64,000 nucleotides of DNA from Asticcacaulis tiandongensis (lineage in GTDB: Bacteria > Pseudomonadota > Alphaproteobacteria > Caulobacterales > Caulobacteraceae): NCBI RefSeq assembly GCF_006475605.1, contig NZ_ML636837.1:500584-564583 (forward strand), given 5' to 3'. The first letter of the stretch is position 1; each line of letters begins with the position of its first letter. Of the stretch, positions 30,794-35,624 are shown piece by piece. Position numbers and translations under genes: made by a program. Below the pieces are notes generated by a model. That model worked only from the letters and a program-made list of their open reading frames with translations. It searched no databases and was not told the DNA's origin.

Positions 30794-31792
30794 TTAGAGC
30801 TGGATGACCTTCGAGTCTTTTTCGGCGTCGGTTTTCAGCGGGTTTTCCAGACCGTGTACAAAGGGTTTGGCACCGATTTCAAACACGTCACCATCCTTGG
30901 TCTGAATGCCGTCAGCAAACGACGCTGTGGCGGTGCCGAAGCAATGGACATGAACTTCGCCAGGTTGGCGGAACAGGTCGTATTTGAAGTGGTGATGCTC
31001 AAGATTGGCGATGGTGTGAGACATATTGTCTTCGCCGGAGATGAACGGCTTTTCCCAGATGATTTCATTGCCGCGACGGATGCGGGCATAACCTTCGACG
31101 TGTGACGGCAGTTCACCGGTCAGGATTTCCGCGCCAATCGAGGCGACGCGCAGCTTTGAGTGGGCCAGCCACAGATAGTTTTGTTTCTCGGTGACGTGGT
31201 CAGAGAACTCGTTGGCCAGCGCAAAACCGATGCGATAGGCCTTGTGGTCGTCACCGATGATATAGATGCCGGCCATTTCAGGCTCTTCGCCACCGTCTTC
31301 AGCAAAGGAGGGTGAGGTGAGGGGATCGCGTGGCCCGACCAGTGTGTTGCCGTTGCCCTTATAGAACCATTCCGGTTGCGCGCCGACTTCACCTTCGGCG
31401 GGCTTGCCGCCCTTGACGCCCATCAGGAACATGCGCATCGAATCGGTGAGGTTTTCTTCGCCTGCGGTGGCGGCCTTATGCATCTTGTCACGGCCTTCGG
31501 CGGAACCAAGGTGGGTCAGGCCGGTGCCGGTGACGTGCAGGTGGGCGGGATCGGGATGATCGATCGGGGCCAGAACACGGCCTTCGGATAGGGCCAGTGC
31601 CACGTCAACCGCTTCGCCCAGACCCTGCTGCGCGACCTGATCAGCCAGTGAGCGTTTGGCGGCAATGGCGGCACGCGCCAGTTCATAGGTCGAGGTCACG
31701 CCCTCAATGCGACGGGCAGAGCCATCATCTTCGCCGGCCGCAACACCGCGCGCACCATCTTTGCCGACATACTGGATCAGACGTAAGGTCAT
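30794..31792 (-). CDS. AraD1/GguC-family sugar-acid enzyme (fumarylacetoacetase-like fold)
   Basis: The 332-residue protein begins MTLRLIQYVGKDGARGVAA and has PDPAHLHVTGTGLTHLGSAE (about 80-100) and GDDHKAYRIGFALANEFSDH, the metal-binding region of the FAH fold. It resembles the AraD1/GguC group. GguC lies in sugar-transport loci of Agrobacterium, and some AraD1 proteins dehydrate 2-keto-3-deoxy-sugar acids. The precise substrate is unproven. It is divergent from a FadR-type regulator, its likely controller. Confidence 0.85.
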   Translation of the reverse strand: MTLRLIQYVGKDGARGVAAGEDDGSARRIEGVTSTYELARAAIAAKRSLADQVAQQGLGEAVDVALALSEGRVLAPIDHPDPAHLHVTGTGLTHLGSAEGRDKMHKAATAGEENLTDSMRMFLMGVKGGKPAEGEVGAQPEWFYKGNGNTLVGPRDPLTSPSFAEDGGEEPEMAGIYIIGDDHKAYRIGFALANEFSDHVTEKQNYLWLAHSKLRVASIGAEILTGELPSHVEGYARIRRGNEIIWEKPFISGEDNMSHTIANLEHHHFKYDLFRQPGEVHVHCFGTATASFADGIQTKDGDVFEIGAKPFVHGLENPLKTDAEKDSKVIQL

Positions 31793-31925: not shown

Positions 31926-32714
31926 ATGACGACTTCCACGCCACGCACACCCCTGAGACGGCAGTCTAAATCCATGTCTCCGGCGGGGGCTCAAAGCTTT
32001 GGGTTAAATTTTCAGGGCCGACTGCATGGCGCGCTGGCGCATCGATTGGGGGTGGATATCCTTAAAGGGGTGTATCAGCCCGGTCAGGTCTTACCGAACG
32101 AAATTGATTCGTCGGCCAATCTGGATATTTCGCGCTCTGCTTATCGCGAGGCTATCCGTATTCTGGCGGCCAAGGGTATGGTCGAAAGCCGACCCAAGGC
32201 CGGTACACGCGTTACCGACCGTAAACGCTGGAACCTGCTTGATCCCGAAGTTCTGGGCTGGATGTTTGAGACCGAGCCTTCGGATGATTTCGTCAAGGGT
32301 TTGTTTGAGCTGCGTCTGATCACCGAACCTGCGGCGGCGGAACTGGCGGCGTTGCGGCGGACAGATGCGCATCTGAAGATCATGGGCAAGGCGCTCGATG
32401 ATATGGATACCTATACGCTGGCGACCGAAGCGGGGCGCAAGGCGGATCTGGATTTCCATGATGCTTTGATGAATGCGACGAATAATGAGGCGCTGGCCAG
32501 CCTGTCGCATTCGATTGGTGCGGCGGTGGCCTGGTCGACCCGGTTTAAACAGCGTCATCAGGCTTTGACGCGTGATCCGGTGCCGGATCACCGGCGGGTG
32601 TTCGACGCCATTGCGCGTCAGGATTCAAGTGCGGCGCGGTGGTGCATGGAATCGCTGATCCGTATGGCGCTTGAGGACACACAGAAGTCGATGAATATCC
32701 AGTATTTAGATTAG
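31926..32714 (+). CDS. FadR-subfamily GntR transcriptional regulator
   Basis: The 262-residue regulator has an N-terminal winged HTH (about 42-105; LPNEIDSSANLDISRSAYREAI then SRPKAGTRV) and an all-helical FCD ligand domain (about 120-250). Metal/ligand residues are in LDFHDALMNATNNE and the C-terminal VPDHRRVFDAI. The FadR group usually senses organic acids or sugar acids. The N-terminal ~35 residues are a basic extension. The adjacent AraD1-type gene is its probable target. Confidence 0.92.
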   Translation: MTTSTPRTPLRRQSKSMSPAGAQSFGLNFQGRLHGALAHRLGVDILKGVYQPGQVLPNEIDSSANLDISRSAYREAIRILAAKGMVESRPKAGTRVTDRKRWNLLDPEVLGWMFETEPSDDFVKGLFELRLITEPAAAELAALRRTDAHLKIMGKALDDMDTYTLATEAGRKADLDFHDALMNATNNEALASLSHSIGAAVAWSTRFKQRHQALTRDPVPDHRRVFDAIARQDSSAARWCMESLIRMALEDTQKSMNIQYLD

Positions 32715-32718
32715 GGCT

Positions 32719-33219
32719 CTAAAAGTTCCGGCTTTCCCAATACCATTGGCTGGGGAGGGATTCGAGCGCCTTAACCTGATGCTCGGGCGATTGGCGTTCC
32801 ATGTGCGGACCACTATCGGGCACGTAAAGTAAGGATATGCTTCTTCCGGAAACGCCAAGGCCTTGAGTATACAGGACGAACTCAACGCGGTCGCTTCTGT
32901 TCTCAAGGTTCAGGCTGAAGTTCACTATGGGGATCTCTAACGCCCGCATCTGCGTCCTGATATCGGATATGGATATATTCGTATTGGCCTGACAAACAGT
33001 AGCATCATTCGCTGCGGCGTTCAGGGTTGTAACCGCCTGCTCTCTGTCCCGTGAATGGGCGGGCCTGCATTCTTCCAGACTTTCAACAAGGTGCAGGAGG
33101 GGGGCTTTGTTCGTATTCAGAAAAGTACGCGTGTGTGCCGCCGTGAGGTCCCTGCCTTCACCGCAGCTTGATAAGGCTGCAAAGCTTCCTGCTAAAACAA
33201 ATAATTTGTGAGCCTTCAT
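32719..33219 (-). CDS. Small lipoprotein of unknown function
   Basis: I start at the ATG at 33219 (MKAHKLF), giving a 166-residue lipoprotein with lipobox LSSC (Cys19). The mature part has two further cysteines (EECRPA, TVCQANT) that may pair, and a C-terminal strand-rich half (IPIVNFSLNLENRSDRVEFVLYT). I do not recognise it. It is convergent with the FadR-type gene and shares the region with another orphan lipoprotein. Confidence 0.7.
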   Translation of the reverse strand: MKAHKLFVLAGSFAALSSCGEGRDLTAAHTRTFLNTNKAPLLHLVESLEECRPAHSRDREQAVTTLNAAANDATVCQANTNISISDIRTQMRALEIPIVNFSLNLENRSDRVEFVLYTQGLGVSGRSISLLYVPDSGPHMERQSPEHQVKALESLPSQWYWESRNF

Positions 33220-33285
33220 GCCCCGTCCCCCCGTTTCAGGCAGCATCAGGTGTACAGCTTAGTGAGTCAAGCGGGTCGGAGGCTG

Positions 33286-33327
33286 TTATGGGCGGAGATA
33301 GATACGGGTGTCGTTGCGGAGCAGGGC
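33286..33327 (-). pseudogene. Relic of a recQ 3' end
   Basis: Read on the minus strand these 14 codons encode ALLRNDTRIYLRP and a TAA stop. The intact recQ at 34053 ends ALFRNDTRLYLRP-TAA. Six of 42 bases differ, and protein changes are conservative. Weaker, frame-shifted similarity seems to continue to about 33355. This is a second, separate copy of the end of recQ, 767 bp away, in the same orientation. Confidence 0.8.
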
Positions 33328-33391
33328 TCTGGGGCTGCGCCGTCACTGAGACGGCCTTTACATCTTGCGACACAACCCGTTAATTACACCA

Positions 33392-33859
33392 TTATTTAAG
33401 TCGAACTTCATTTGTTCTAACGGTAGCACCAAGCATACTACCGCCACGGCCATACATGCAAAGCGAACGATTATTTAGCAAAATTTCACTCGACACATAA
33501 ACACTCGCTTTTGTTCCACCAGATATATTCTCGTTAGAAATACTTCCACCGTTTCTAATGGAATCCATAGACAAAGAATTCACATAAAATTCGTCGGTAG
33601 AAATATTATTTTCTGCACAGTTTGTTATCTCAGCTCTAAATGTCGATGTGCTGCTCCTTAGATAATTTACGATATCACCTTTAATCAAGACGTCGTATTT
33701 TTTCCATTTCTTGTCGGCTTCATTTTCTTCTTCAGGCCCTATGGTTGAAACAGGCCTTTCGGAAACAACTTCTGAAGATAACACGCTAAGTTTGTATGAT
33801 TTGGAACAAGCGCTTAGCGATATGAGAAAAGCCAAGCATAAGAGCAGTCTATTGATCAT
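33392..33859 (-). CDS. AT-rich orphan lipoprotein
   Basis: The 155-residue lipoprotein has lipobox LSAC (Cys18). The mature part is rich in Ser, Asn and Glu (EEENEADKKWKKYDVLIKGD), with two cysteines (TNCAENN, RSLCMYG). Base composition is clearly more AT-rich than all neighbours, with AAA/AAT-type codons rare elsewhere in the window, which suggests acquisition. No family is recognised. It lies between the relic and the real recQ 3' ends. Confidence 0.75.
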   Translation of the reverse strand: MINRLLLCLAFLISLSACSKSYKLSVLSSEVVSERPVSTIGPEEENEADKKWKKYDVLIKGDIVNYLRSSTSTFRAEITNCAENNISTDEFYVNSLSMDSIRNGGSISNENISGGTKASVYVSSEILLNNRSLCMYGRGGSMLGATVRTNEVRLK

Positions 33860-33946
33860 TGCTTTTTCCTTATCTGGCGACTCCAGCCGGAGCTACCTTA
33901 TATATTTTTTCTACATGCAGTGAAGAATAAGGGGGGGATTGCAATT

Positions 33947-34002
33947 CCCCCCTCCGTCGCGGACTGGCGCCGCGACACCTCCCCCGTAAACAGGGGAGGA
34001 TG
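33947..34002 (+). repeat. Two-hairpin intergenic repeat, copy 6
   Basis: First stem GTCGCGG..CCGCGAC with loop ACTGGCG (one arm differs from copy 2 only in the loop), ACCTCCCC, second stem CCCC..GGGG, GGAGGATG. It lies between the AT-rich lipoprotein and recQ. Confidence 0.9.
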
Positions 34003-34006
34003 GAAG

Positions 34007-34052
34007 ATGTCACCCACCTCGGGGCAAACGGGTGCAGGGCCTGAGGCCCTGC
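34007..34052. repeat. CCTCGGGGC..palindrome extension after repeat copy 6
   Basis: CCTCGGGGCAAACGGGT then the perfect palindrome GCAGGGCCTGAGGCCCTGC, ending at the recQ stop codon. It matches 29934-29980. With no T-run on the minus strand it is not a classical terminator for recQ. Confidence 0.85.
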
Positions 34053-35624
34053 TTAGGGGCGGAGGTAGAGGCGGGTGTCGTTGCGGAACAGGGCGCGCAG
34101 AGCGTCGGCGTCGTTCAGAGCGATGATTGGTTTATTGCCGTCGAACATTTCTTCGGCCACCAGACCGAGCGCTTCGCAGTAATCAAGAGTCTGGGTCAGG
34201 AAATCGGCCTTGTACTGACCGGCGGCGATGCCAAAGGTCTTAAGGCGCGCACCATAGTCCTCAGGATTTTTGCCCAGAACATGCTCAATCAGCTTTTTAC
34301 GTCCGCGCGGGCCATTGAAACGATAAAGAGCCGACATCAGCATCTGGGCGGCTTCGGTGGCGTCAGAAGGTTCGCCACGGGCCAGACAGTTGTCACAACT
34401 GCCGCAGGCCTGACCGGTGGTATCGCCGAAATAGCGGCGCACGCCCTGACGGCGGCAGGTGGCCCCGAGCATGAACTGAAAGAAGTCGCGGGCCTTTTGT
34501 TTCTGGATGCCGAGGTCTGCGCCGGTTTCGTTTTCCCGCATGGTCAGACGACGCAAGGCCCAACCAAGATCGGTCGAGGAATAAAGACAGACACCTGAAG
34601 CCGGTTTGCCGTCACGACCGGCGCGGCCTACCTCCTGCCAGTAGGCTTCGATAGAGGACGGCGGATCGGCGTGGATGACAAAGCGCACATCGGGTTTGTT
34701 GATGCCCATACCAAAGGCAATCGTGGCGACCATGACGCGGGTCTTGTCGGCCATGAAGTCTTTGAGGCGCTGTTCGCGGGTATGGGCAGGCAGGCCTGCG
34801 TGATAGGCATCGGCCTTGAAACCTTCGGCACTCAGGAGGCGGGCCAGTTTCTCGGAACCGTCGCGTGATCCGCAATAGATGATGCCGGACGCCTGTTTCT
34901 GACGACGCAGCATCTCAACGATGGTTTTGGCGGCGCTGCCCTGACGGCGCATCAGACGTAAGGACAGGTTCGGGCGGTCGAAGCTGTCTATGGCCTCACG
35001 GGCGTTATCGATATGCAGAGCGCGTTTGATGTCGGCGCGGGTGTGCGGGTCAGCGGTCGCCGTCAGGGCCAGGGTCGGCACATCAGGAAACAGGCCCTTG
35101 AGTTGACCAAGCGCGCGATATTCGGGCCTGAAATCATGGCCCCATTGCGAGACACAGTGGGCTTCGTCGATAGCCACCAGATTGACCGGCAGGCGCGATA
35201 GTTTATCGAGAACGAAGGGTTGCAGCAGGGCTTCGGGCGACAGATAGAGAAGGTCAAACTGCCCGTCGCGCGCCTGATCCCACAGGTCATAACGCGCGTC
35301 CATCGACAGGGAGGAATCGAGTCTGGCGGCGCGCACGCCTTTGTCCTGAAGGGCCTGCACCTGATCGCTCATCAGGGCAATCAGCGGCGAGATAACAAGG
35401 CCAAAGCCGCGCTGCATCAGGGCCGGTATCTGATAGCACAGACTTTTGCCGCCGCCGGTCGGCATGACCGCCAGCACGTCTTCGCCGTTCAGGATGGCGC
35501 TGATGACCTCGGCCTGTCGTCCGCGAAAATCACTGTAGCCAAAGACCGTTTTCAGGACGTCACGTGCCGCATCCACGCCGGTTTCGGCAGGCGCGGGACG
35601 TTCGGTAGTGCGGTCAAGAAACAT
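34053..35624 (-). CDS. recQ: RecQ-family ATP-dependent DNA helicase without HRDC domain
   Basis: The 523-residue 3'-5' helicase has Walker A MPTGGGKSLCYQIPAL (about 56-71), DEAHCVSQWGHDFRPEY with the RecQ loop, LTATADP, and motif VI GRAGRDG. A zinc-binding region CRRQGVRRYF..CGSCDNC follows. The C-terminal RQC winged helix appears short and the HRDC domain of E. coli RecQ (610 aa) is missing. RecQ acts in recombination and fork repair. Its last 14 codons are duplicated at 33286. Confidence 0.94.
   Translation of the reverse strand: MFLDRTTERPAPAETGVDAARDVLKTVFGYSDFRGRQAEVISAILNGEDVLAVMPTGGGKSLCYQIPALMQRGFGLVISPLIALMSDQVQALQDKGVRAARLDSSLSMDARYDLWDQARDGQFDLLYLSPEALLQPFVLDKLSRLPVNLVAIDEAHCVSQWGHDFRPEYRALGQLKGLFPDVPTLALTATADPHTRADIKRALHIDNAREAIDSFDRPNLSLRLMRRQGSAAKTIVEMLRRQKQASGIIYCGSRDGSEKLARLLSAEGFKADAYHAGLPAHTREQRLKDFMADKTRVMVATIAFGMGINKPDVRFVIHADPPSSIEAYWQEVGRAGRDGKPASGVCLYSSTDLGWALRRLTMRENETGADLGIQKQKARDFFQFMLGATCRRQGVRRYFGDTTGQACGSCDNCLARGEPSDATEAAQMLMSALYRFNGPRGRKKLIEHVLGKNPEDYGARLKTFGIAAGQYKADFLTQTLDYCEALGLVAEEMFDGNKPIIALNDADALRALFRNDTRLYLRP

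Follow-up and report, generated by a model that had tools for sequence, protein, structure and literature searches.

The last 42 bases of recQ in Asticcacaulis tiandongensis recur as a diverged copy on the same strand, and the space between the two copies holds an AT-rich lipoprotein gene, lipo1, which within the genus was found in this genome only. lipo1 probably came from outside as a small shield gene, perhaps through recombination at the recQ end, and its product is most likely, judging by sequence and by the gene context of its homologues, an orphan lipoprotein of the Rhs-immunity type, kept without a cognate toxin. The mechanism that we favour, recombination at the 3' end of recQ with DNA from a near relative, is put forward tentatively, at somewhat less than an even chance. 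A small acquired islet had already been proposed at this place by a sequence-only reading, which is partly supported: the repeat and the AT-richness that it described were borne out, the restriction within the genus and a junction unlike those of the relatives speak for it, the likely identity of the cargo has been added, and the mechanism it suggested now takes its place among several readings.

The locus was analysed in a window of 64,000 bases (the whole stretch of DNA studied, to which all plain coordinates refer), located on a contig of 756,523 bases within a 3.22-Mb assembly. Read along the minus strand, the locus comprises recQ, two dispersed repeats, lipo1, the diverged recQ-end copy (hereafter the relic) and a second lipoprotein gene, lipo2, after which come a plus-strand GntR-family regulator and an AraD1-family gene. 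The recQ gene (34053–35624, minus strand, 523 aa) matched the Pfam models DEAD, Helicase_C, RecQ_Zn_bind and RQC above their cut-offs, and its present 3' end (ALFRNDTRLYLRP-stop, 34053–34094, minus strand) constitutes the first copy of the repeat. A dispersed hairpin element, repeat unit A (34000–34052, minus strand), begins directly 3' of the recQ stop codon and is followed by dispersed repeat unit B (33945–34002, minus strand) and by lipo1 (33392–33859, minus strand, 155 aa). Between lipo1 and the relic (ALLRNDTRIYLRP-stop, 33286–33327, minus strand), a small inverted repeat, GCCGTC-TCAGT-GACGGC, was noted by eye at 33339–33355. lipo2 follows at 32719–33219 on the minus strand, its reading frame being open to 33246, and the GntR-family regulator with its FCD domain (31926–32714, plus strand) forms the right boundary of ordinary genes; its divergent partner is the AraD1 (GguC) family gene (30794–31792, minus strand, NF040903 above cut-off). 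A second copy of the regulator gene, 74% identical and containing one in-frame TAG, is located at another site in the same genome (G000:C10:1282926-1283618), and two near-identical copies of the gene are found in several relatives.

Aligned without gaps, the relic and the present recQ end are identical at 37 of 42 positions, with an identical core of 16 bases and a spacing of 767 bp, and the repeat stops exactly at the recQ stop codon. The repeat is thus real, on the same strand and spaced as first described, with the earlier count of 36 identities corrected to 37. Extension of the similarity beyond the 42 bases was unsupported, as 266 and 169 of 1000 shuffles equalled the scores of the two flanks. 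When the relic and its flanks (33270–33390) were searched against the genome, the relic itself was recovered and, as the second hit, the recQ end (E 1.5e-8), the only further matches standing at E 0.10 and 0.63. As a control, 441 mechanically called ORFs of at least 150 aa from 404 kb of the organism's own DNA were assessed for recurrence of their last 42 bases within 3 kb downstream at 30 or more identities; recQ was the sole case, with 37 identities against 29 for the next best. On these two grounds a chance match, which the sequence-only reading had named as an outcome that would speak against it, was rejected: the relic is unique in its own genome, and the 441 ORF ends yielded no second case. 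Nor was a relic present behind recQ in the 24 relatives from the genus, where the best alignments reached 24 of 42 identities on the same strand and 25 on the opposite one.

Both copies encode RNDTR-x-YLRP, and the five differences between them comprise three silent changes and two conservative ones (F to L and L to I). In 20000 trials of random change, a peptide kept this similar was obtained in 3.6% of cases (P 0.036) when starting from the recQ end and in 2.3% (P 0.023) when starting from the relic, a weak sign that both copies may have diverged as working recQ ends, five changes being too few to separate functional from neutral divergence firmly. The degenerate RNDTR-x-YLRP pattern occurred at two places in the genome itself and at none in 298 other genomes of the family; it was also absent from the genome_contigs and viral_contigs collections, which may leave out near-identical records, and the recQ genes of the 24 other genus genomes have different 3' ends. 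Since the pattern was found in no other genome searched, the copy should stem either from this lineage or from an unsampled near relative. Under the favoured reading, the incoming molecule would have come from such a relative and would have carried a diverged recQ 3' end together with lipo1. One crossover at the recQ 3' end would then yield the observed order, leaving recQ whole with one end, while the other end would have been displaced 767 bp downstream to its position before lipo2.

The pattern of differences also bears on the strongest alternative, namely a local duplication, in which slippage or unequal exchange would have doubled the final 42 bases of recQ on the spot, lipo1 and the dispersed repeats entering later and separately. 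A copy made in this way is non-coding and should drift freely, yet three of the five differences are silent and the other two conservative (P 0.02–0.04). Local copying would moreover require two independent events at one spot, and no such copy was seen at the other ORF ends among the 441. The repeat is nevertheless short and local, its motif is confined to two places in this one genome, and unit A, which adjoins recQ at its present 3' end, is characteristic of the organism's own DNA. We regard local duplication as possible but rather unlikely.

Unit A was found in nine copies in 444 kb of the organism's own DNA and in none in 331 kb around recQ of 20 relatives. Because the present recQ end abuts an element that belongs to this genome and is lacking from those relatives, that end looks long resident, which counts against the favoured exchange. 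Within the window, copies of unit A are located at 34000–34052 and from 29979 downward (minus strand). Six of the nine start between -1 and +5 nt from the stop codon of an ORF of at least 100 aa, positions that make up 1.8% of those available, and a seventh follows a TGA. Units A and B have many more copies in the genome than these, at least 47 places having been scored.

The AT-rich lipoprotein gene described in the sequence-only reading was confirmed at 33392–33859. Its GC content is 0.378 against a background of 0.565, and equally low values were found in 0.15% of 7918 overlapping windows of the same length, so that the composition difference, whose absence would have told against acquisition, is present. 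The encoded protein has a lipobox, LSAC, with the cysteine at position 18 (motif identified by eye). No homologue was detected in the 24 other genus genomes, and the gene is thereby restricted to one genome in 25, which supports the earlier reading. Searches against Pfam and NCBIfam gave nothing above cut-off, and the best PHROGs match had an E-value of 0.04. A phage, plasmid or viral origin was considered and rejected, as lipo1 had no match in phage, plasmid and viral collections; the homologue in genome G286, searched in plasmids, likewise gave none. A single-sequence structure model of the mature protein was unusable (mean pLDDT 30.8).

The statement that lipo1 has no recognised homologue had to be changed, as three distant ones were found among 390 genomes of the family (in G286, G223 and G030; E 4e-14 to 5e-10, 27–32% identity), two of them in Rhs loci. 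A profile built from the four proteins recovered lipo1 itself from 385 genomes of the class, together with a single match of marginal significance (G715, E 8e-4), and it had no match among solved structures. When aligned, the four proteins are invariant in 17 columns, including Cys18, Cys81, Cys134 and a GG-x-M motif, and the lipobox cysteine was seen by eye to be common to all of them. The sequence-only reading had further held that a lipoprotein occurring without a relic in related genomes would weigh against it; such occurrences were limited to these homologues located elsewhere, and at 27–32% identity they are too distant to count as the same gene.

In G286, the first base of the homologue immediately follows the stop codon of an Rhs gene encoding 1426 aa, the product of which contains RHS repeats and an Rhs core domain at 1181–1253. 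The last 177 residues of this protein, analysed alone, matched Abhydrolase_8 at 22.3 bits (cut-off 20.5), whereas the whole protein scored 19.3, below the cut-off. The C-terminal part contains the motif GHSYG, and weak PDB matches to pancreatic-type lipases were obtained for it (E 0.02 and 0.09). The G223 homologue closes an rhs array (G223:C1:3653000-3668000), which consists of a full rhs frame of 1636 codons, a small lipoprotein-like gene and then two rhs pieces, namely a fragment backed by the RHS model and a further rhs-like piece, along with small AT-richer genes; the homologue lies about 1 kb further on, after small genes, and five small frames of the array had no Pfam match. The G030 homologue has no Rhs gene in view; on one side the contig ends after approximately 130 bases, and on the other there is a gene of the carboxylesterase family. 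All three are poorer in GC than their loci (0.44 in 0.66, 0.49 in 0.65 and 0.59 in 0.71), and low GC alone is therefore no proof of an AT-rich donor for lipo1.

The location of two of the three homologues in Rhs loci points to a likely function, and the family is best read, from gene context, as Rhs-immunity-type lipoproteins. The lipo1 product would accordingly act in the envelope, where it would stop an Rhs-borne toxin on its way in, which may be a lipase. In the organism's own genome, all 15 RHS_repeat matches fell on contig C18. The two readable Rhs C-termini there are without GxSxG, and a search of 40 kb of this contig gave no match to the lipase-like portion of the Rhs protein from G286. 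As far as the Rhs genes on C18 go, lipo1 would thus be an orphan. The Rhs genes at C18:1-40000 surround a split set of type II secretion genes (secretin, T2SSE, T2SSF and prepilin peptidase), and behind one of the Rhs genes stands a gene of 35% GC with an RraB domain.

The second lipoprotein gene, lipo2, was not mentioned in the sequence-only reading. Its product carries the lipobox LSSC (by eye) and appears unlike that of lipo1 on inspection. A homologue was found in one of the 24 other genus genomes (G023), where it adjoins an ATP-binding-cassette-like gene, and another on the Sphingopyxis indica plasmid pMC4 (24% identity, E 6e-6), in an unannotated stretch between the malic enzyme and mutS genes. 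A role of lipo2 as an Rhs immunity gene was considered and is unsupported, both relatives found in the genus set and in plasmids being situated beside ordinary genes and not beside Rhs genes.

The directly repeated gene end, which stops at the stop codon and retains an identical core of 16 bases, brackets 767 bp of odd composition, and the whole could also be what is left of an integrative element, which would have entered the recQ 3' end by means of its own integrase, restored that end with a copy it carried, and lost everything apart from lipo1. The gene-end repeat expected at both borders of such an element is present; an integrase inside or near it was not found in the window, as the sequence-only reading had noted. 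No tyrosine recombinase lay in the window among the six of the eight PF00589 matches of the genome that were listed, and a Xer-based profile run against 284 frames of the window gave none (best E 0.46). A Xer-type recombinase gene does occur directly 3' of recQ in one relative and within 1.9 kb of it in five more; we take it to be the housekeeping Xer gene, and its counterpart in the present genome is 53 kb from recQ. The picture of a decayed element is further weakened by the want of any larger relative and of a match to lipo1 in the phage, plasmid and viral collections, and the Rhs context of the homologues requires no element, which together make this origin doubtful.

The flanks of recQ were compared with those in the 24 relatives. 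On the upstream side, a PBP1A-family gene was located within 2.6 kb of recQ in all 24, directly adjoining it in 20 and lying 1.4 to 2.6 kb apart in four. The 3' side varies, with one gene family in eight relatives, another in seven and other genes in the rest. None of the relatives carries lipo1 or shows the AraD1/GntR pair in the recQ flank examined (at most 8 kb in 20 loci and at most 1.5 kb in the other four); in 16 of 19 of the relatives' loci, the two genes are found together in another place. The recQ 3' junction of this genome differs from all 24, and the variable 3' side together with the missing pair marks the present join as lineage-specific; since other genes stand behind recQ in the relatives, no empty site with a single recQ end joined to the 33240 side was seen among them. 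In one relative, a second recQ-like fragment (51% identical, with one in-frame TAG) was located at a contig end (G022:C135:1-453). The constant PBP1A side, the differing 3' genes and the AraD1/GntR pair residing elsewhere would suit a rearrangement scar, the relic being simply the seam at which a chromosomal rearrangement brought recQ next to the AraD1/GntR genes and having nothing in particular to do with lipo1. This appears improbable, as such a scar does not account for a recQ-end copy that is diverged and coding-like, and no relic or lipo2-like DNA was found in the relatives' loci examined.

Several observations also count against the favoured recombination with a near relative's DNA, beside the long residence suggested for the present recQ end. 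Homologous recombination would have had only 42 bp to work with, which is short, and the pattern was seen only once among the 441 ORF ends and the recQ genes of the 24 relatives. On the side of the predicted function, lipo1 is only distantly related to its homologues, one of which has no Rhs gene in view, the relatives of lipo2 are not Rhs-linked, and the lipase-like match in G286 rises above the Pfam cut-off only with the C-terminal part alone. A role in immunity to Rhs-borne toxins, lipase-like in one case, is suggested for a lipoprotein family that matched no Pfam or NCBIfam model above cut-off here, and the relic may show, as a scar, how a gene of this type comes to lie 3' of a conserved one with no integrase in sight. 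A bolder version, to which we give only a slim chance, is that the recQ end serves as an anchor at which shield genes are stacked, each lipoprotein bringing a recQ end and pushing the older pair downstream as at rhs and cdiA loci, so that recQ end, lipo1, old recQ end and lipo2 would be the product of two rounds; genomes could then be searched for orphan immunity genes by their gene-end scars.

Integrative elements that insert into gene 3' ends, such as e14 in icd, keep the gene end whole and leave a diverged copy as a direct repeat. The present locus has the same arrangement, and differs from e14-type elements in that no integrase was found, the stretch spans 767 bp only and no larger form is known. 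In Tle/Tli lipase effector-immunity pairs, an envelope-borne immunity protein counteracts a lipase-type effector. lipo1 is likened to these by description and not by sequence, and its toxin would be Rhs-borne and is missing here. A literature search for Asticcacaulis with Rhs returned nothing about this subject by title. Orphan immunity genes without a toxin have been described both behind complete Rhs-immunity pairs (PMC10539506) and in an islet away from toxins (PMC7400221). Such Rhs and T6SS orphans and lipo1 are alike in being small immunity-type genes without a toxin, whereas lipo1 is located behind recQ, outside an rhs locus and beside a displaced end of a housekeeping gene, and its immunity function is predicted. 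Exchange within the shared part of a gene is reported to displace modules at rhs loci (PMC3967940, PMC10539506). The displaced rhs-CT/immunity modules resemble the present locus in that a truncated end of the upstream gene marks each older module pushed downstream (PMC3967940); the shared part there is the toxin gene itself, with 522 bp at 95% identity, compared to 42 bp of recQ at 88% in the case presented here.
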